Assembly: GCA_030431975.1 (NCBI GenBank)
Contig: JAUIHP010000002.1
Coordinates: 248,001 to 312,000 of the forward strand
Source of the DNA: a bacterium
GTDB taxonomy: Bacteria > Eisenbacteria > RBG-16-71-46 > CAIMUX01
Length of the DNA stretch: 64,000 nucleotides
Direction of reading: 5' to 3'
Shown here in pieces: positions 46,765 to 61,969 of this stretch. The stretch's first letter is position 1. The number at the start of each line of letters is the position of its first letter. The notes beneath the pieces are model-generated. The model ran no database searches and was not told the origin of the DNA. It saw only the letters and a list, made by a program, of their open reading frames with translations. A program made the translations under genes and the position numbers.

Positions 46765-47502
46765 CTAATCCTCGCGGCCGAAGAGTGCCTTGACCTCACC
46801 CCAGCTGGTCTCGATCGTAGGGGTCGCCGGCACGTACGGGTCAAAACCGGTCGCACCGTTGAGACCCAGCGTCCCGTACTCTTCAATGTCATCCAGAACC
46901 GCAGGAACGGAGTCGTCGGCGAACTTACCACCCTGCGTCGGGTGGGCGATCAGCTCCACCTCAAGCGGCCCGTAGTAAGAATATGCGGCGATCCAATACA
47001 CGGACGTGGCCTGTGTGGTCTTTGCTGAACTCCAGGTAACGGCCGTCCCGGAGAACGGCGTGTCCGGCCAGCTCGGCTCGTCGAGCTGGAAGTCACCGCA
47101 GCCACCGTGGGAAACGATAGTGAGGTCATTCCCGGACCAGCTCATTCCGAAGGTCACACCGGTCAGGCGCGGCTCCGCCATGTCCTGGGAGTTATTCGGG
47201 AGGAAGGCAGCGATCACCCATCCGACCGCAGGAGCGATACCGAGGCCCGACGTCGGGTTGATGTTGAGGAGTGAGGCTTGGCATTGGTCCTCGTACTCAT
47301 AGCCACCACCGTTGTCGGTGTAGTCAAAGTCCACCGGGCAGTCGAGCCCGCTCGGCATGCAGTAAGGCTCGTCGTCCGACGTGTAAATCACAGAGTCATC
47401 TGTGTGGAAGGTCAGGAATCCCCGAACGTTCGGCCCTGCATCGGCTATCCCTGCGGTACCCACCAAAAGGCTGGCGCAGACGATCCAACTAGCAACTTTC
47501 AT
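46765..47502 (-). CDS. Secreted protein, paralogue 1 of a local family
   Basis: The 245-residue exported protein has signal VCASLLVGTAGIADA. The mature start AGPNVRG matches the AGPN start of paralogues 2 and 3. The core has the family blocks LTGVTFGMSWSGNDLTIV, GGCGDFQLDEPSWPDTPFSGTAVTWS, TSVYWIAAYSYYG and HPTQGGKFADDSVPAVLDDI. It lacks the CC repeats of the others and ends PTIETSWGEVKALFGRED, so it keeps the shared Ser-Trp-Gly tail with three extra residues. GAGGAGG lies 10 nt before ATG 47502. The family is unknown to me; the function is not inferred beyond export. Confidence 0.82.
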   Translation of the reverse strand: MKVASWIVCASLLVGTAGIADAGPNVRGFLTFHTDDSVIYTSDDEPYCMPSGLDCPVDFDYTDNGGGYEYEDQCQASLLNINPTSGLGIAPAVGWVIAAFLPNNSQDMAEPRLTGVTFGMSWSGNDLTIVSHGGCGDFQLDEPSWPDTPFSGTAVTWSSAKTTQATSVYWIAAYSYYGPLEVELIAHPTQGGKFADDSVPAVLDDIEEYGTLGLNGATGFDPYVPATPTIETSWGEVKALFGRED

Positions 47503-47560
47503 CGATCTCAAACCTCCTCGGAGACATGACGTGTCCGCGGGCATTCCCTGCGGTATCCAA

Positions 47561-47682
47561 AATCCCTATTTTTAACCACCGCTGCCAGAGAAACCCCGCG
47601 GCAGACAGAATCGGGCAGTGGCGCGAACCTTCCGGGAAAAGTAGCTCGCCCGACCGGCGGGGCGCAAGCATAAATAGGGATT
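47561..47682. promoter_or_regulatory. Long-spaced 11-bp inverted repeat upstream of secreted paralogue 1
   Basis: AATCCCTATTT (47561-47571) and AAATAGGGATT (47672-47682) are perfect inverted copies separated by 100 bp. They lie in the 210-bp leader between the terminator of paralogue 2 and the start of paralogue 1. Possible roles are a regulator-binding pair that loops DNA or an RNA structure. They are AT-rich against a GC-rich background. Confidence 0.45.
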
Positions 47683-47714
47683 GTGGAGGGAACTAGCGGG
47701 ATCCGAACGGGCCA

Positions 47715-47748
47715 AAGAAAACGGGGCGTCCCAGTTGGAACGCCCCGT
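47715..47748 (-). terminator. Intrinsic terminator after secreted paralogue 2
   Basis: The stem ACGGGGCG/CGCCCCGT extends outward to about 11 bp with one mismatch. A 6-nt loop and a TTTTCTTT run on the minus strand complete it. It is 52 bp past the stop of paralogue 2. Confidence 0.8.
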
Positions 47749-47800
47749 CCACGGAAGGGGGACTCGAGGAACCTGGAAAGGTTCCTCCCGTGGCCGTCAA

Positions 47801-48685
47801 CTAGCGGTAGATGCCCTTGATCTCGCCCCAGCTGGACTCGATCGTGGGAACGACACAGGGGTCGCCGTCACAACTCGTGTCGTCACCGAGGTAGTCGCCG
47901 CCGGCATCCAGACATTCAGACTCGGTCCGAATCGAGCAGGCGGCGTCGATGCAGCAGGCTCCGGTGGCTGGCTGAGGGCAGTCCGCAGTGTCACAGTCCG
48001 TGCCGGATCCCTGGAAATCCCCGCCGGCGCCGCTGCACTCCGCTTCGAGGAGAATCTGGCAGGAGCCGTCAGCAAAGCAGCATGCACCCGGCAGATCGTC
48101 GTCCTGCGGACAGGGAACGTTGCCGTCCGTGCTGAATCCGAACGAACCCAAGGCCGAGATCGGATCGAGGTTGGATGGGACGTCATCGTCTGCGAAGTTC
48201 GCGCCCTGCCCCGGGTGCGCCACCAAGTCGAAGGAGTTGGCGTTGCCGTAGTAATTGTAGGCCGCGAACCAGTAGACGTCGGTAAGCGAGCTCTCCTGGG
48301 CAACGGAGTAGGTAACGGCCGTCCCTTCGTTCGGGGCGGGCCATCCGCCGGTGGCCAACTCGAAGTCACCGCACGAACCCCAGCTCTGGAAGAAGATCTC
48401 CGAGTCGTTGTAGGCGACACCGAAAGTGACTCCGGCCAGGCGCGGACTGGCGGCCCCGGAGAACGCGGCCAGAACGTTGAGAACGGCCGTATCGGAGTTG
48501 TCGTACCGCCCGATTGCCGCGTCGCAGCTGTCGAGAGCATGCGAGCCGCAGTAGGTATCCTCATCGAAGGTGAAGACCACGCCGTCGCTGAGTGCGACGA
48601 TCAGAGTTCCATTGGCATTGGGGCCCGCCATTGCAGTACCGGAAACGCAGGCCAGGGCAGCGGCCACCAGTAGAGTTTGCTTCAT
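47801..48685 (-). CDS. Secreted protein, paralogue 2, with cysteine repeats
   Basis: The 294-residue protein has signal LLVAAALACVSGTAMA and mature start GPNANGTLIV. The core includes VVFTFDEDTYCG, IGRYDNSDTAVLNVLAAF, GVTFGVAYNDSE, GSCGDFELATGGWP and VYWFAAYNYYGNAN. Two cysteine modules follow (GACCFADGSCQ...EC...FQGSGTDC and GACCIDAACS...EC...YLGDDTSC), then the tail PTIESSWGEIKGIYR. The module resembles Cys-rich repeats I have seen in exported proteins of planctomycete-like bacteria. Protein identity with paralogue 3 is high across the core. Its own promoter and terminator flank the gene. Confidence 0.85.
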   Translation of the reverse strand: MKQTLLVAAALACVSGTAMAGPNANGTLIVALSDGVVFTFDEDTYCGSHALDSCDAAIGRYDNSDTAVLNVLAAFSGAASPRLAGVTFGVAYNDSEIFFQSWGSCGDFELATGGWPAPNEGTAVTYSVAQESSLTDVYWFAAYNYYGNANSFDLVAHPGQGANFADDDVPSNLDPISALGSFGFSTDGNVPCPQDDDLPGACCFADGSCQILLEAECSGAGGDFQGSGTDCDTADCPQPATGACCIDAACSIRTESECLDAGGDYLGDDTSCDGDPCVVPTIESSWGEIKGIYR

Positions 48686-48792
48686 CGCTGGGTAATCCTC
48701 CCGTGGAGACGGATCTTTCAAGTCCGCGCCAGAGAACAACTTGGGGCCTGACGCGTCCGGTCGATCACCACGATCGAACCGAGAACGACTTC

Positions 48793-48822
48793 ATCGTATC
48801 CAAGATATCGGAGAAACGTCAA
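48793..48822 (-). promoter_or_regulatory. Candidate sigma70 promoter for secreted paralogue 2
   Basis: -35 TTGACG (48817-48822), an 18-bp spacer and -10 TACGAT (48793-48798) on the minus strand, about 100 nt before the ATG at 48685. Confidence 0.5.
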
Positions 48823-48868
48823 CGTTTATTTACGCTATGGCATCGAACGAAGACACCCCGTGCGCGAC

Positions 48869-48907
48869 AAAAACGGACGAAGGCCGGACCCAGAGGATCC
48901 GGCCTTC
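48869..48907 (-). terminator. Intrinsic terminator after secreted paralogue 3
   Basis: A 10-bp perfect stem (GAAGGCCGGA/TCCGGCCTTC, 48879-48907) with a 9-nt loop is followed by CGTCCG then TTTTT on the minus strand. It lies 32 bp past the stop of paralogue 3. Confidence 0.75.
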
Positions 48908-48939
48908 ATTCCTACGAACGAACTATCGCGAAGCTAGGC

Positions 48940-49803
48940 TTAGCGGTAGATGCCCTTGACAGCACCCCAGCTCGTCTCGACGGTCGGAACGACGTCACAA
49001 GGATTCGGATCACAACCGGTGTCGTCACCCTGGTAACCCTCGTCACCACACTCCATCCGCGTACGGATGGTGCAGTTGCCTTCGTCGTCGCAGCAAGCGC
49101 CGGTCGGAGGCGGAGGACACGGGTTCGGATCACAGTTGGTGTCCGGACCCTGGAAGTCACCCTGGCAGTCAGCCTCAGGGACGACCGTACAGGAACCGTC
49201 CATGAAGCAGCATGCGCCCGGAGCGTCACCCTGCGGACACGGAACGTTGCCATCCGTCGCGAAACCGAACGAACCGAGAGCTGCGATCGCATCGAGCTCG
49301 GACGGAACGCTGTCGTCAGCGAAGTTGGCACCCTGAGACGGGTGAGGGATCAGGTCAAACGTATTGGCGTTGCCGTAGTAGTTGTACGCGGCGAACCAGT
49401 AAACGTCGACCAGGCTAGCTTCCTGAGCGGCGGAGAAGGTAACAGCGGTACCCTCACCCGAACCCGGCCAGCCGCCGGTTCCGAGCTCGAAGTCACCACA
49501 GGCACCCCAAGCAGCCAGGAAAACCTCAGCGTCATTGTAGGCAACACCGAAGGTGACACCAGCAAGACGCGACGTACCCGGGAAAGCGGCAAGAACGTTG
49601 ATCACGGCAGTGTCGGTGTTGTCATAACGACCGATAGCCGTGCCACAGTCCGTGGCGCCCGCACCGCAGTACGTCTCTTCATCGAACGTAAACACAACCC
49701 CGTCAGCCAGGGTAGCCACAAGGGTACCACCAGCATTCGGGCCGGCAATTGCAGTACCGCCCATAACGGCGACAGCTGCTGCAGCCAGAAGCACTTTCTT
49801 CAT
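48940..49803 (-). CDS. Secreted protein, paralogue 3, with cysteine repeats
   Basis: The 287-residue protein has signal KKVLLAAAAVAVMGGTAIA and mature start GPNAGGTLVATL. It is the closest relative of paralogue 2: VVFTFDEETYCG, IGRYDNTDTAVINVLAAF, AGVTFGVAYNDAEV, GACGDFELGTGGWPGSGEG and VYWFAAYNYYGNANTFDL. Two cysteine modules (GACCFMDGSC..., GACCDDEGNC...) precede the tail PTVETSWGAVKGIYR. AAGGAGG lies before ATG 49803. The open frame extends upstream to 49956 through an unusual Gly-rich (CCACC repeat) stretch that I consider non-coding. The role is unknown; surface structure or adhesion is possible. Confidence 0.85.
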   Translation of the reverse strand: MKKVLLAAAAVAVMGGTAIAGPNAGGTLVATLADGVVFTFDEETYCGAGATDCGTAIGRYDNTDTAVINVLAAFPGTSRLAGVTFGVAYNDAEVFLAAWGACGDFELGTGGWPGSGEGTAVTFSAAQEASLVDVYWFAAYNYYGNANTFDLIPHPSQGANFADDSVPSELDAIAALGSFGFATDGNVPCPQGDAPGACCFMDGSCTVVPEADCQGDFQGPDTNCDPNPCPPPPTGACCDDEGNCTIRTRMECGDEGYQGDDTGCDPNPCDVVPTVETSWGAVKGIYR

Positions 49804-50016
49804 TTGCTTCGAACCTCCTTGACTTCTGTCAAGCGTAGCTGTGAACAGATCAGTCATTGAATCACCTCTATAGTGATTCCCACCACCGCCACCACCCCAG
49901 TTTTGAGGATTTACTAGATTAAGGTTGGAGGCTGAAACGAACTCTTCTTCACACACAGTTTAGTGGAATCATCGAAACGAATCCACCACGGTAACAAAAT
50001 TCCGAACAGGCGTTCC

Positions 50017-50595
50017 TTACGGAGTGCAGCTGTTCGGATTGACGAACGTCGGCGAAAAGATGATGAGGTCGGAAAGGTCCGTCGCGCCGGTGTTGTCATA
50101 GTCATGACAGTCCGACGTGGCGGAACCCAGGAACTCGTTCGAGAAGTCGACGAGATCCGACAGGTTGATGACGAGGTCACCAGCACCACCATCATAGTCC
50201 GGGCTCTTGACATTGTCGAAAGACCGGATGGTAACACCATTCGCCTTGATCAGCCCGGAAAGGGCCGTGTTGTGGGAGCAGCCACCACCACCGAGGGTGA
50301 TCACCACTTCGCCAGCCGCGTCCGTGGTTCCCGTCAGGACGGTAGCACCACAGAGGATGTTGCTGGACGAAACAATGACTTCCACACCGGCAGAAGCGAT
50401 CGGACTGTTCGAACCGTTCCGGACCGTGATCGTATTGATCGAAGCCGGGACCGGGGTCGGATCCAGCGGAGCCAGAACCAAACCATTGAGCGCGTCCGCC
50501 GGCTGAGCTTCGCAGTTGGCCGAAACCGGCACATCAGCGAGAGCAGCCGTGCTGCAAAGTGCGAGTCCCATGAGCGAGAACAGCACTTTTTTCAT
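50017..50595 (-). CDS. Secreted protein with C-terminal dockerin-like repeats
   Basis: The 192-residue exported protein (signal KKVLFSLMGLALCSTAALA) has a beta-rich middle (ITVRNGSNSPIASAGVEVIVS...) resembling an Ig-like or carboxypeptidase-regulatory fold. At its end are two repeats of dockerin type: GDLVINLSDLVDFSNEF and DYDNTGATDLSDLIIFSPTF. The second has the D-x-D-N-x-G pattern of a calcium loop. Such modules in these phyla often act in surface or multi-protein assembly, not only in cellulosomes. GGGAGG precedes the ATG. It is not part of the SWG-tail family but sits among its members. A near-consensus promoter lies upstream. Confidence 0.8.
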   Translation of the reverse strand: MKKVLFSLMGLALCSTAALADVPVSANCEAQPADALNGLVLAPLDPTPVPASINTITVRNGSNSPIASAGVEVIVSSSNILCGATVLTGTTDAAGEVVITLGGGGCSHNTALSGLIKANGVTIRSFDNVKSPDYDGGAGDLVINLSDLVDFSNEFLGSATSDCHDYDNTGATDLSDLIIFSPTFVNPNSCTP

Positions 50596-50905
50596 CGAGT
50601 CTGACCTCCCAGAAATGGGTGATTATCTTGATGCGAATATCCAGAAGGTTTCCCGTATGTCTATTCGCGATGTCGTACCGGCAGCGAACGTCCCCGCAGG
50701 GACGGCCCCTGAGGCACACAATTCCACCGCCAGCTTGCACGATTGCCATTATATCAGCAAAGATCCTGTTCTTCAAAGGGACAAAATGGCAAGGATTTGG
50801 GGAAATCGGATGTGGCGACACCGGGATCCGGAAGGCCCGGGAGAAGTGGTAGGTCCGACGGAAAGCGATGCGGCGCACCCGGATATGGGCGCGCCGCAAT
50901 CGGAT
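50596..50905. other. 310-bp leader and intergenic region, no gene
   Basis: It holds the promoter at 50748-50776, a roughly 145-nt leader with a small hairpin (CGTCCC/GGGACG arms, 50689-50704), and a region before the tRNA in which I see nothing else. Confidence 0.5.
50748..50776 (-). promoter_or_regulatory. Strong sigma70 promoter for the dockerin-like gene
   Basis: -35 TTGAAG (50771-50776), a 17-bp spacer and a perfect -10 TATAAT (50748-50753) on the minus strand. It is the best promoter match I found in the window. Confidence 0.7.
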
Positions 50906-50979
50906 TGGGCGAAACAGGATTCGAACCTGTGACCCCCTGCTTGTAAGGCAGGTGCTCTAACCAGCTGAGCTACTCGCCC
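50906..50979 (-). tRNA. tRNA-Val (anticodon TAC)
   Basis: The 74-nt cloverleaf is complete: acceptor stem GGGCGAG paired with UUCGCCC, D-arm GCUC/GAGC, anticodon stem CCUGC/GCAGG with loop CUUACAA, a 5-nt variable region and T-arm ACAGG/CCUGU with loop UUCGAAU. The discriminator is A and CCA is not encoded. Anticodon UAC reads GUA/GUG valine codons. Confidence 0.97.
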
Positions 50980-50995
50980 TCGTCAAAACAGTTTG

Positions 50996-51298
50996 TCATC
51001 TTTCTTCCCGGGAGGACACCTCCGCCTCTTCCTCAGCATGTTCGACCCGCTTTGCGTCGGACGACTTGGCGATCAGGGCCCACGGGATCAGCCCGAGGTA
51101 CCCGGCAACGAGGAGGATCGGAGCAAGAGTGATCTCTCCCCCGGCGAGGAGGAGAAACCCAGCTACGATGCAGCCCAGCCCCGCCCCTACCAGGATCCAA
51201 TTCTTGCGGCCGAAGTCGAGGCTCTGAAAACGGACCCCTTCCGAGGTGGCAGCCGCTCGTGCTCTCTTCGCCTGTCGTTTTGGGCTGGGTCCGGCCAT
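50996..51298 (-). CDS. Small two-helix membrane protein, DUF3098-like
   Basis: The 100-residue protein has a basic N-terminus (SPKRQAKRARAA), then DFGRKNWILVGAGLGCIVAGFLLLAGGE (helix 1), LAPILLVAGYLGLIPWALI (helix 2) and a charged C-terminal tail (RVEHAEEEAEVSSREER). The pattern recalls the DUF3098 proteins of Bacteroidetes; I cannot confirm it. ATG 51298 has GGAG 8 nt upstream. It begins just after larE ends and stops just before the tRNA. Confidence 0.7.
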   Translation of the reverse strand: MAGPSPKRQAKRARAAATSEGVRFQSLDFGRKNWILVGAGLGCIVAGFLLLAGGEITLAPILLVAGYLGLIPWALIAKSSDAKRVEHAEEEAEVSSREER

Positions 51299-51303
51299 TA
51301 AGG

Positions 51304-52170
51304 CTACTCCGCGTCTCCGGTGGTGGGTCGGTCCCGATTCGGATCTCCCGAAGGACGGTACCCGCGCAAATCCAACGTCACTTCCTTGTACCCGGCCGCA
51401 GCCACGGTGTCCACCACTGGCTCCCGAACCTGCAGGATTCGTTCGATCCACTCCGGAGCCACCTCGACTCGGGCCAACTCCCCATGATCTCGCACCCGCA
51501 CATCCGGAAACCCCAGGCGACGGAGCCCGTCCTCGGCTCGTTCGATACGACGGAGGGCCGATTCCGTGATCGCCGTCCCAGTCGGTACCCGGGAGCTCAG
51601 GCACGGACTCCCGGCAAGCTCTGCGGTGGAGAGTCCCCAGTAACGGCTGACGGCTCGAATCTCGGACTTCCTCCAGCCGAGTTCAAAGAGCGGAGACCGG
51701 ACGCCGAGGTCACGCGCCGCCTGCCGACCCGGGCGCCAGTCCCCAACGTCGGACGCCTGTGTACCGTCCACCAACGTCATGCCGTCCCCCGCCTTCTTCA
51801 GGAAGGCCTGATACAGGACGCTCTTGCAGTGAAAACAGCGGTCGGGGCCGTTGGCCCGGTATCCCGGGTTCTCCAACTCCCGAGTCGGAATCTCCTCGAG
51901 GGTCACACCCAGCTGCCGGGCGATGCCCCGTGCCCGACGTAGTGATTCCGCACTCAGGGCCGGAGAGACTGCGATCCATGCGTGGACCTCTCCCCCGTTC
52001 GGGATCGCCCGTCGGGCAAAGACCGCCGCTGCCAAGAGAAAGCTGCTGTCGACCCCGCCGGAACAGGCAACGGCGAGGGGCAGCATCCCGGCGAGTGCGT
52101 TCCTCAAGGCTTCGATCTTCTGCGCCGGCACGCCGCAACCAACCGAGGACCGCTGGACTTCAGCGGTCAC
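51304..52170 (-). CDS. larE: LarE-like ATP-dependent sulfur transferase
   Basis: LarE is a PP-loop enzyme that activates and sulfurates the nickel-pincer nucleotide precursor, giving up its own cysteine sulfur. The 288-residue protein shows the PP-loop VACSGGVDSSFLLAA, GPDRCFHCKSVLY, VDGTQASDVGDWRPGRQA, and the sacrificial-type cysteine in AGSPCLSSRVPTG (at about 190). Its usual partners larB and larC, and larA, are not in this window, so it is an orphan here. It starts GTG at 52170, overlapping the stop of secreted paralogue 4 by 3 nt. Confidence 0.9.
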   Translation of the reverse strand: MTAEVQRSSVGCGVPAQKIEALRNALAGMLPLAVACSGGVDSSFLLAAAVFARRAIPNGGEVHAWIAVSPALSAESLRRARGIARQLGVTLEEIPTRELENPGYRANGPDRCFHCKSVLYQAFLKKAGDGMTLVDGTQASDVGDWRPGRQAARDLGVRSPLFELGWRKSEIRAVSRYWGLSTAELAGSPCLSSRVPTGTAITESALRRIERAEDGLRRLGFPDVRVRDHGELARVEVAPEWIERILQVREPVVDTVAAAGYKEVTLDLRGYRPSGDPNRDRPTTGDAE

Positions 52171-53126
52171 TTCGAGGAATCCCGGTCGGCGCACACATCG
52201 GGAGTGCAGGTCACTCCTTCGCCCAGGAACTCGCCGACGGCGGAGTAGCACTGGGCCCGGGTCAGAACCTCGCACCCTTCGGCGACACAGCACGCGCCCG
52301 GTGTTTCGGCGGTGCAGACGCCCGGATCGCAGACGCCCTCGCCAAGGAAGAGTCCGGCGTAGTGGGCGCATTCGAACTCCGTCAGGAGGAGGCATTCGTC
52401 AAGACAGCAAACCCCGCGCTTTACGTCCTGACCCACCTCGGGAACGTGACCTTGCTCGTTACCGAAACCGATTCGGCCGAAGCCCACGACCGGTTCCAGA
52501 TGCGGTTTGGCGTCGAAGTTTCCCACTCGTGCCGCCTGCCTCGGTATGGGGTGCGGCTCGACGGCGAAGTACCCGTCCTCCTTCGACGACAAGACGAACC
52601 AGGCAATGGGAGCCGGGCTCTCTTCGTAGCGGGGACGGAACGAAAGGGCGATACCCGCACCGGAGGCGGGATACTCCGGTGTCGGAATGACGACTCCGTT
52701 TCCGTGGCAGTAACCCCACCCTTTCAGTTCGACGGTCTCGCTGTACTCGATTCCGAAGGTCGCACCGGCCAAGTCCATCGGCTCGCCGTCGGGAAGGACG
52801 GCATACAAGACGAAGATCCGGGGAACCCCGTCGGCCTCGAAACTCACTTCGTAGTCACCGGCGGTCGGACGCGGGAAAGTCAGGCAGTCCCCGACGAGGG
52901 TGCCCTCGGGAAGTTCGCTCGCGTAGGAAAGGACGTAGGCAACGCCCTCGTGGGTGGGTCCGCCAAACTGCGTCTGGGCGAAACTCGACGACGGGATCGT
53001 CAACGCGAGAGCCAGCATCACCGCCGCCGCGCTGAGCACGAATGCCCTACCCGAGCGGAGTTCGCATGCCCGGACGAACCGCAACGATGCCGTTGCCGCA
53101 GGATGACGAGTGAACGGACGGTTCAT
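52167..53126 (-). CDS. Secreted protein, diverged paralogue 4, with cysteine repeats
   Basis: The 319-residue protein has a long signal (AFVLSAAAVMLALALTIPSSSFAQ, cleavage near 55). The core retains family blocks in diverged form: DLAGATFGIEYSETVEL, GWGYCHGNGVVI and the HPIPRQAARVGNFDAKPHLEPVVGFGRIGF segment that corresponds to HP.QG..FADD...L..I..LGSFGF. Two cysteine modules follow (GVCCLDECLLLTEFEC, GACCVAEGCEVLTRAQC). Unlike the others it lacks the SWG tail and ends CADRDSSK. ATG 53126 is preceded by AGGGGAG. It is coupled to larE, probably by chance. Confidence 0.8.
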   Translation of the reverse strand: MNRPFTRHPAATASLRFVRACELRSGRAFVLSAAAVMLALALTIPSSSFAQTQFGGPTHEGVAYVLSYASELPEGTLVGDCLTFPRPTAGDYEVSFEADGVPRIFVLYAVLPDGEPMDLAGATFGIEYSETVELKGWGYCHGNGVVIPTPEYPASGAGIALSFRPRYEESPAPIAWFVLSSKEDGYFAVEPHPIPRQAARVGNFDAKPHLEPVVGFGRIGFGNEQGHVPEVGQDVKRGVCCLDECLLLTEFECAHYAGLFLGEGVCDPGVCTAETPGACCVAEGCEVLTRAQCYSAVGEFLGEGVTCTPDVCADRDSSK

Positions 53127-59512: not shown

Positions 59513-61969
59513 ATGCGGCCCGGGCACCCAGATCGGTGTCACGTGCTTCCAAACTCCGTCAAACGTTGGATCGGACCTTCTCTGGCCGTGGGTGTCTTCG
59601 TACTCGCGGCCCTGGTTGCACGCACCCCTTCCCACGAACCGGCCGACGTGCAGGAAGACCGGCCCCTCTCGGACTGGTTCGAAGAGACCGGACTCGACTG
59701 GCAAGTCGTGGTCGACATCGAATCCCCCGTCGGCCGGCATCAACGCTTCCGCCCCTTCCACGGCGATGTCGAGTTCCGAGGTGTGGACGTGCGCCAGATG
59801 GAACGCGTCACCGGTCATTCCGGGGAGACCTGGATGCTCCCCCACCGTGCGAACGCCATCGTCGGAGTCCGCGGTCAGACCATCGAGGTCGAAGATCGCG
59901 TGGAGTTCCGTCCGTTCGCCGACTGGGCCCGGCTTCAGCGTGAAGCCATCCGCTTTGAAGGCCTGACCGACTTTGACGCCCTCACGAGCGCTCTCGACGG
60001 GGCCAGGCGCGTGATCCGGGTCAGTCGGTCGGGCCACACCTTTCACGTCGAAGGCACGTGGAACCCGGCTCTATCCCGCGGGGAGAAGCCGAACCCGTCC
60101 GGGAATGCGGCCTCATCCAACGCCGGTCAGGCTCTTCGGTCCCAGGTGGCGCACCTCCTCTCGACCCATCCGACACTGAATGAGATCGATGCGCCCGTCC
60201 CCATCTCCATTCGCTTCGAAGCCGAGTCCGGAGTCGGGGTCGAAATCGAAGACCTACGCCGTCACGCTCAGGGCCGCGCGCTGATCTTCGATCCAAACCC
60301 GGTTGCGGAGAGCGGGAATCCAACCCTGCGGGACGGCGACCCCGTCGAGAGCTACCGAGTGTGGCGGGATCTCGAGAGATTGAGAAACGACGGCACTCTC
60401 CGAGGAGAGTGGGTCGAGGCCTACACGGATGTTCCTCCCCTTGCCCTGGAACCGTTTCGTGAGTTCGTCTACCGCTCGACCGATCCGCGTTTCGAGCAGG
60501 CAATGGCCTACTACCATGGCGACCGTTCCTTCCAACGACTCCCCGACCTCGGCTTCACCGGCGTGATGGACGGGCCGCGATCTCTGCGTGTTCACGGAAG
60601 CCGCCTCGACAACTCCTGGTATTCGCCCGTCACTCGCCAGATCGTTTTCGGAAGCGGTGGCGTCGACGATGCCGAAGATGCCGACATCATCCTTCACGAA
60701 ACAGGACACGCCATCCATGACGCTCTCGTTCCGGGCTTCGGTTCCGGTGATACGCGTGCCATTAGCGAAGGGTTCTCCGACTACTGGGCCGCGTCCCTGA
60801 CCGGACACGCCTGCGTCGGAGACTGGGATGCGACGACCTACGGCCCTCCCTGCCTGCGCCGCGCCGACGAGGACATGCGCTTCCCGAATTCCCTCATCGG
60901 AAACGCTCACAAGGACGGAAGACTCTGGAGTTCGATTCTTTGGGAAGCGCGCAAAGTGTTGGGCCCGGAGACCGCAGATGTACTTGCTCTGACCGCATTC
61001 TTTCATCAGTCGACGGACTCGAGTTGGGAAGAAGCCGCGATGGGACTGCTGCAGGCAGCCTACCGCCTGGGCGTCGGCGAAGACGTCGAGCCGATTCTGG
61101 TCTGGCGCGGCTTTCTCGCACAGGAGATCTCTCTCGACCTCGCTCCCACCGATACGCTGCGCGTCGACCTCGCCGGCGTCGTGCAATGCGTGGGTCATCC
61201 GGTGGAGCGACTGCGTTTGACGGGCGAAGGCGTCTTCCAGTTCGAGGCTCCCAACCAACGTTCGTCTTCACTGTCGCCGTGGATCGTTCCGTTGGCTCCG
61301 GCAGAAGTCTCGGAGGATCTGCGTCTGGGCGGAGAGTGGATGCTGACCGGATCCCGCCTCGACGTGGAACTCGTCTGGTCGAAGGGCCCCGCGAAACTAA
61401 GAGCGGCGATGGAATGGGAAACGGACACCGGGGTTCTGGAGTGGACGATCCTGGAAGTCAGTCATCCGGAAGCCTTGGACCCGGCTTGGAGCGGCGGCGG
61501 ACTTCAGGCGGTGGGACCGTTCGAGTTCGTCGATTGGAACGCGGAGGAACTTGCCTGGACCGGAACCCGTGGTTTTGAAGGAACTCATGATCACGAAAGC
61601 CTCTTTCGCGCTGGTGAGCGCTTCCGTCTGGAATCCACCGAGGACGGGCAACTGCGACTGACTCGAATTGCCTCGGGCCGACATCTCCCCGGCCGGGGCG
61701 CATTCATCGTCGCCCAACCCAATCCTTTCCGGGGACAGACGGAGATCACGGTCTTTTCCGCGGAGCCCTGGACTGCTGGCCTGAACATCTTCGACGCTGG
61801 CGGTCGCCGCGTCTTTCACCTGGATCGCAGGAACCTGCCTCGGGGAGTTTCAAGCTGGTTTTGGGATGGACGGGATGCCGACGGTCTTGCCCTTCCTGCC
61901 GGAAAGTACTTCGCACGAACGCGGTCCGGGCAGGAAGAAGCGACCACGCCTCTCACTTTGATCCGCTAG
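59513..61969 (+). CDS. Secreted gluzincin metalloprotease with FlgD-like C-terminus
   Basis: The 818-residue exported protein has a signal peptide (WIGPSLAVGVFVLAALVA) and a propeptide-like N-terminal third. The zinc protease motif IILHETGHAIHD (HExxH) lies at about residue 396, with the third ligand Glu in ISEGFSDYWAAS as in M4/M36-type gluzincins. A beta-rich part follows, and a C-terminal domain starting AQPNPFRGQTEITVF and ending with a GKYFARTRSG strand. This domain is like that of the C25 protein at 26.2 kb. The start could be ATG 59513 or GTG 59543. The exact peptidase family is unknown to me. Confidence 0.88.
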   Translation: MRPGHPDRCHVLPNSVKRWIGPSLAVGVFVLAALVARTPSHEPADVQEDRPLSDWFEETGLDWQVVVDIESPVGRHQRFRPFHGDVEFRGVDVRQMERVTGHSGETWMLPHRANAIVGVRGQTIEVEDRVEFRPFADWARLQREAIRFEGLTDFDALTSALDGARRVIRVSRSGHTFHVEGTWNPALSRGEKPNPSGNAASSNAGQALRSQVAHLLSTHPTLNEIDAPVPISIRFEAESGVGVEIEDLRRHAQGRALIFDPNPVAESGNPTLRDGDPVESYRVWRDLERLRNDGTLRGEWVEAYTDVPPLALEPFREFVYRSTDPRFEQAMAYYHGDRSFQRLPDLGFTGVMDGPRSLRVHGSRLDNSWYSPVTRQIVFGSGGVDDAEDADIILHETGHAIHDALVPGFGSGDTRAISEGFSDYWAASLTGHACVGDWDATTYGPPCLRRADEDMRFPNSLIGNAHKDGRLWSSILWEARKVLGPETADVLALTAFFHQSTDSSWEEAAMGLLQAAYRLGVGEDVEPILVWRGFLAQEISLDLAPTDTLRVDLAGVVQCVGHPVERLRLTGEGVFQFEAPNQRSSSLSPWIVPLAPAEVSEDLRLGGEWMLTGSRLDVELVWSKGPAKLRAAMEWETDTGVLEWTILEVSHPEALDPAWSGGGLQAVGPFEFVDWNAEELAWTGTRGFEGTHDHESLFRAGERFRLESTEDGQLRLTRIASGRHLPGRGAFIVAQPNPFRGQTEITVFSAEPWTAGLNIFDAGGRRVFHLDRRNLPRGVSSWFWDGRDADGLALPAGKYFARTRSGQEEATTPLTLIR

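Follow-up and report, generated by a model that had tools for sequence, protein, structure and literature searches.

This work deals with a short C-terminal peptide of ten residues (Ser/Thr-Trp-Gly-x-Ile-Lys-x-x-Tyr-Arg), given here the working name WG-CTERM, carried by secreted proteins of an uncultured bacterium of the Candidatus Eisenbacteria (GTDB lineage RBG-16-71-46; CAIMUX01). The stretch of DNA analysed, referred to as the window, comprises 64,000 nucleotides and corresponds to positions 248,001 to 312,000 of contig JAUIHP010000002.1 (GenBank assembly GCA_030431975.1). It contains a group of four paralogous genes, all located on the minus strand (Table 1), among which the peptide is found. 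The same tail occurs on many unrelated exported proteins, both in this genome and in related phyla, and is probably a short sorting or anchoring tag recognised after Sec export, a function to which its distribution and context point.

The four paralogues of the window

As stated in the original prediction, the four open reading frames share conserved core blocks, which could be aligned. The start codons retained are those yielding signal peptides, and one such peptide is present at the N-terminus of each protein. Upon alignment with paralogue 3, paralogue 2 displays 72 % identity, paralogues 1 and 4 being more distant (42 and 28 %). The two Cys-rich modules expected in three members were found in paralogues 2, 3 and 4 in the form GACCxxDGxC...C...GDxTxCxPxPC. 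Tails of the SWG type had also been assigned to three members. Paralogues 2 and 3 do end with the exact motif SWGx[IV]KxxYR, whereas paralogue 1 carries only the variant SWGEVKALFGRED, with a displaced Arg and four residues after it. Paralogue 4 terminates with CADRDSSK and no tail remnant was detected downstream in any frame.

Table 1. Window coordinates of the four paralogues, their Cys modules and their tails
Feature	Position	Strand	Remark
Paralogue 1: signal peptide and core, variant tail, without Cys modules	46765..47502	-	Open reading frame; start MKVASW
Variant tail SWGEVKALFGRED, paralogue 1	46768..46806	-	
Paralogue 2: signal peptide, core, two Cys modules, tail	47801..48685	-	Open reading frame
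GACC Cys module 1, paralogue 2	47978..48088	-	
GACC Cys module 2, paralogue 2	47855..47962	-	
Tail SWGEIKGIYR, paralogue 2	47804..47833	-	Adjoins stop
Paralogue 3: signal peptide, core, two Cys modules, tail	48940..49803	-	Open reading frame; structure model
GACC Cys module 1, paralogue 3	49117..49218	-	
GACC Cys module 2, paralogue 3	48997..49101	-	
Tail SWGAVKGIYR, paralogue 3	48943..48972	-	Adjoins stop
Paralogue 4: divergent core, two Cys modules, without tail	52167..53126	-	Open reading frame; core profile E 8.6e-22
Cys module 1 and beginning of module 2, paralogue 4	52272..52415	-	

No Pfam, NCBIfam or PHROGs model matches the four cores and a sequence-profile comparison with the PDB returned no match below E 0.13, in agreement with the original prediction, where no named family was recognised. 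The size of the family, set there at four members, was an underestimate: a search with the core profile finds about a dozen more elsewhere in the genome, on other contigs, which brings the number of members to at least 15 and identifies the family as an expanded one. The AlphaFold model of paralogue 3 suggests a beta-sandwich, possibly of the jelly-roll type (predicted local distance difference test score, pLDDT, 78.7; predicted template modelling score, pTM, 0.61). The top Foldseek matches of the core are cohesins, with E 1e-4, about 10 % identity and template modelling scores by target of 0.53-0.64 in the best matches. The likeness to this well-described domain is one of predicted fold only: the core differs from cohesins by the low identity, the lack of a sequence-family match and the added GACC modules, and a cohesin function is not implied.

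Between paralogues 3 and 4, adjoining these cohesin-resembling proteins, lies a gene (50017-50595, minus strand) for a small exported protein whose C-terminus appears by eye to contain two dockerin-like EF-hand repeats; it has no Pfam dockerin match. A relative of the core, at locus L146, displays a subtilase and, in place of the tag, a FlgD/PorU-like end, the latter match being weak (E 0.013). The GACC modules, of about 35 residues with six Cys, correspond to no named domain. They occur with and without the core and, in this genome and its relatives, are strung into long arrays in numerous exported proteins (loci L007, L011, L020, L021, L024, L064 and L199 besides the window).

A tail common to many exported proteins

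The tail was searched for at the DNA level with the pattern TGGGGNNNNNTNAARNNNNNNTWYMGNTRR (W-G-x-[hydrophobic]-K-x-x-[YF]-R-stop), the reversed pattern serving as a control. The genome containing the window (6.19 Mb) returned 25 matches versus 0 for the reversed pattern, and the 47 genomes of the phylum, taken together, 672 versus 0. The tail is present far beyond chance. Read in frame, each of the 25 matches ends an exported protein, and these proteins are of many kinds. When the adjacent stop codon is omitted from the pattern, 16 more matches appear in the same genome; 14 are tails located 1-20 residues before the stop (with extensions such as R-TELSGS, R-GAPAR, R-E or R-PLKR...), one is internal (L200) and one is doubtful. 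These 14 extended tails rule out the requirement for an exact C-terminus and bring the number of tail-bearing proteins to at least 39 (25 + 14). Looser variants, such as LYQ, AFAKP and LFAPKKETTKE, are present as well. Internal copies of the motif were observed in the lipoprotein-like proteins L089 (AAWSDIKSLFR) and L200 (STWGYIKAVFR), each with a further domain after it, as if a tailed gene had been fused with its neighbour.

The proteins themselves were studied in a set of 213 tail open reading frames, 172 of them complete. Once the signal peptide and the tail are removed, about 67 unrelated clusters are left, so that the tail is by no means confined to the core family. A strict signal-peptide heuristic selects 156 of 171 tail proteins versus 98 of 329 background genes (p = 9e-43), and some of the tail proteins are lipoprotein-like. 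A transmembrane-like stretch within the last 60 residues was found in none of 200 tail proteins, which rules out the tail as the leftover of a transmembrane anchor. The domains located ahead of the tag include LTD, NHL, beta-helix, PPC, CHRD, nidogen-like NIDO and PKD, which are typical of the cell surface, and P_proprotein. At locus L054, a choice-of-anchor V domain (93 bits for a cut-off of 42) occupies residues 26-194 of 217 and is followed directly by the tag. Choice-of-anchor domains owe their NCBI name to the fact that the anchor found at this site differs from one homologue to another.

The position profile of the tail reads [TVS]-P-[VT]-E-x-[ST]-[ST]-W-G-x-[IVL]-K-[AS]-[LM]-[YF]-R. The invariance of W, G, K and R is imposed by the search pattern; the first pattern did not dictate P, E and S/T further upstream, nor the A/S and L/M choices, which are conserved all the same. 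The tails employ all Gly codons and several codons for Arg, Tyr/Phe and Ile/Val/Leu, a diversity indicating that selection acts on the peptide. Two structure models place the tag apart from the folded body, with a pLDDT below about 50, as expected for a free peptide. For the tail of paralogue 3, AlphaFold proposes a low-confidence helix. A clear amphipathic helix was not relied on, as the hydrophobic moment does not clearly exceed that of shuffled tails (15 of 208 tails above their own shuffled 90th percentile).

Distribution over phyla and known C-terminal signals

The tail motif is present in 44 of 47 Eisenbacteria genomes (up to 41 per genome), in 76 of 78 genomes of Krumholzibacteriota (up to 51 copies) and in some genomes of Latescibacterota. 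The Bacteroidota, the phylum of Hymenobacter, display matches in 62 of 247 genomes versus 8 for the reversed control, nearly always as a single copy. Among 20 Bacteroidota loci examined, 18 contain a small protein with a signal peptide and a fibronectin type III (FnIII)-like domain, ending with TWGSIKAMFR, TWGMIKEMFR or similar, the other two being chance frames. The last 11 residues of these single-copy orthologues are 79 % identical, for 28 % in the body. The matches listed in a public-genome scan were mostly Candidatus Eisenbacteria records and also included Krumholzibacteriia, Latescibacterota, some Gemmatimonadota-labelled records, KSB1 and Hymenobacter.

The control phylum returned 3 matches in 148 other genomes and 4 for the reversed pattern, i.e. 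chance level. Three tail genes, the sole ones in a Planctomycetota-titled genome (G059), all reside on one contig of 3.5 kb (C390, locus L101). Since the matches are confined to this contig and the remaining phylum is at chance, contamination by a mis-binned Eisenbacteria contig is likely, and Planctomycetota were rejected as a host. In the sparse-tail family f7, which belongs to the same class as the window genome, no variant tail was found among the exported proteins in 301 kb of genome G022. This result led to the rejection of a tail diverged rather than lost in f7, where the tail seems to be absent, not altered.

Several established signals resemble the tag. The PEP-CTERM/exosortase, GlyGly-CTERM/rhombosortase, MYXO-CTERM/myxosortase and LPXTG/sortase systems share with it a short motif, near-universal signal peptides and many unrelated targets, and in these systems too a choice-of-anchor kind of domain precedes the signal. 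However, the tripartite signals (LPXTG, PEP-CTERM, GlyGly-CTERM) consist of a motif, a transmembrane helix and a basic cluster, the helix being required (PMC3237569). The tag is devoid of such a helix, which makes an intramembrane sorting enzyme unlikely, and its motif, WGxxKxx[YF]R, lacks the signature PEP, GG, Cys or LPXTG. The C-terminal domains (CTDs) of type IX secretion (type A, TIGR04183; type B, TIGR04131) are likewise C-terminal signals borne by Sec-exported proteins of varied domain content, dozens per genome and in the same phylum group, and the tag-bearing genomes encode SprA and PorV. They differ in being immunoglobulin (Ig)-like domains of about 70-100 residues, the tag having about 10-16 residues, no fold and no model match. 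No description of the tag was found in the Pfam and NCBIfam models or, using six sample tail strings, in the open-access literature, where no treatment of type IX secretion in Eisenbacteria was found either.

Function of the tag

The original prediction suggested a sorting, anchoring or assembly signal. This proposal gains support from the spread of the tail over unrelated exported families: the use of one near-C-terminal position throughout the genome, the association with signal peptides, the unrelated preceding domains, the conservation of the peptide over several phyla and the lack of a transmembrane anchor all argue for a sorting or anchoring tag. In the proposed mechanism, the proteins would cross the inner membrane via Sec by means of their N-terminal signal peptides, some being lipoprotein-like. 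The tag, as defined by the position profile, would stay free outside the folded domain near the C-terminus. A putative dedicated receptor of the envelope would then recognise it, and the protein may be delivered to, or held at, the outer surface.

A number of observations weigh against such a tag. The signal peptides were called by heuristics, and the motif copy of L200 is internal, with 221 residues after it. SprA and PorV are retained even in genomes where tails are scarce or lacking, so that no known machinery tracks the tag. ORF (open reading frame) clustering detected no conserved non-tail neighbour at 172 tail loci or at 20 tandem-array loci. In Bacteroidota, the only genes found repeatedly near the tail gene are of the maf type (11 loci), with an RdgB-like gene in Hymenobacter. 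Neither a receptor nor a processing enzyme came to light, although no search aimed at the exosortase family was made. An adjacent dedicated sorting enzyme was rejected on the basis of the 172 early, 20 Bacteroidota and 20 tandem-array loci, where maf and RdgB-like genes are the only recurrent neighbours. Both of the latter (loci L180-L192, L069, L174 and L175) encode housecleaning nucleoside triphosphate pyrophosphatases.

Two of the rival explanations are narrower versions of the sorting or anchoring tag, and their probabilities overlap with the one assigned to it. The tag may act as a non-covalent docking peptide for assembly at the surface or in the periplasm, on a scaffold, a surface layer, peptidoglycan or lipopolysaccharide, and play no role in transport. 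This possibility, which we regard as real but short of even, accommodates the aromatic, hydrophobic and basic composition of a peptide left free in both models, its presence on lipoprotein-like proteins that are already membrane-attached and the dispensable C-terminal carboxylate revealed by the extended tails; it is weakened by the failure to find a candidate scaffold and by the lack of clear amphipathicity reported above. Rather unlikely, in our opinion, is a minimal new class of type IX signal, brought to SprA by a PorV/PorP-like shuttle, which might be one of the many PorV paralogues. SprA is encoded in 46 of 47 genomes of the phylum (495 bits for the copy of the window genome, cut-off 200) and PorV in all 47, with 15 copies in the window genome; type A CTDs are numerous in these genomes as well, at least 97 being encoded in that of the window. 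The tag was, moreover, found nearly exclusively in relatives of Bacteroidota. In Flavobacterium, the signals of type A and those of type B rely on different shuttles (PMC12618676), so that yet another signal might conceivably have yet another shuttle. Nevertheless, of the features of type A substrates, the Sec signal peptide and SprA/PorV are present and the Ig-like CTD is not: TIGR04183 is absent from the 25 of 30 families listed for 62 tail-protein representatives, no NCBIfam model matching more than 2 of these 62. The genomes with 0 tags that retain SprA and PorV argue in the same direction, and no tag gene was observed beside a shuttle gene. A full SprA-type translocon is located at L211:6762-13592 (G000:C49), next to M28-like peptidase, NusA and IF2 genes. 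The window itself encodes a large exported protein (59513-61969, plus strand) whose FlgD-like C-terminal domain resembles the type A CTDs of type IX secretion, though below the cut-off, so that C-terminal signals of two classes might be present in the window.

The remaining rivals assign no address function to the tail. A translational or folding role, be it a stall in termination or a shield against C-terminal proteases, appears improbable. The tail does adjoin the stop codon and TAG is enriched, ending 20 of the 25 exact tail genes of the window genome, compared with 105 among the 334 genes of contig C10 (p = 2e-6). However, the motif can be followed by as many as 20 residues, stop usage varies by genome (TAA is the commonest in G005), and the restriction to exported proteins would be left unexplained. 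Even harder to sustain is a functionless homologous segment spread by hitch-hiking through the duplication of gene ends: many tail genes are paralogous or in tandem and have TAG stops in common, yet the tail is conserved over several phyla with diversified codons and is better conserved than the body in the single-copy Bacteroidota orthologues, a conservation that already contradicts this explanation.

The sorting or anchoring tag is therefore retained as the best explanation. We advance, more tentatively and at somewhat less than even chances, that WG-CTERM is the signal of a separate, undescribed sorting system of the Eisenbacteria-Krumholzibacteriota-Latescibacterota-Bacteroidota group, which would employ its own receptor for a short free peptide after Sec export and would be neither an intramembrane sortase nor a classical type IX system.

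C-terminal tags have led earlier to whole sorting systems, namely sortase, exosortase, rhombosortase, myxosortase and type IX secretion. The present tag is compact, is carried by hundreds of proteins in several poorly known phyla, has no Pfam or NCBIfam model and would mark part of their surface proteome. Its W, G, K and R residues provide a defined handle for finding the machinery, and, as its single-copy form occurs in Bacteroidota that can be cultured, Hymenobacter for instance, it is already open to experiment.

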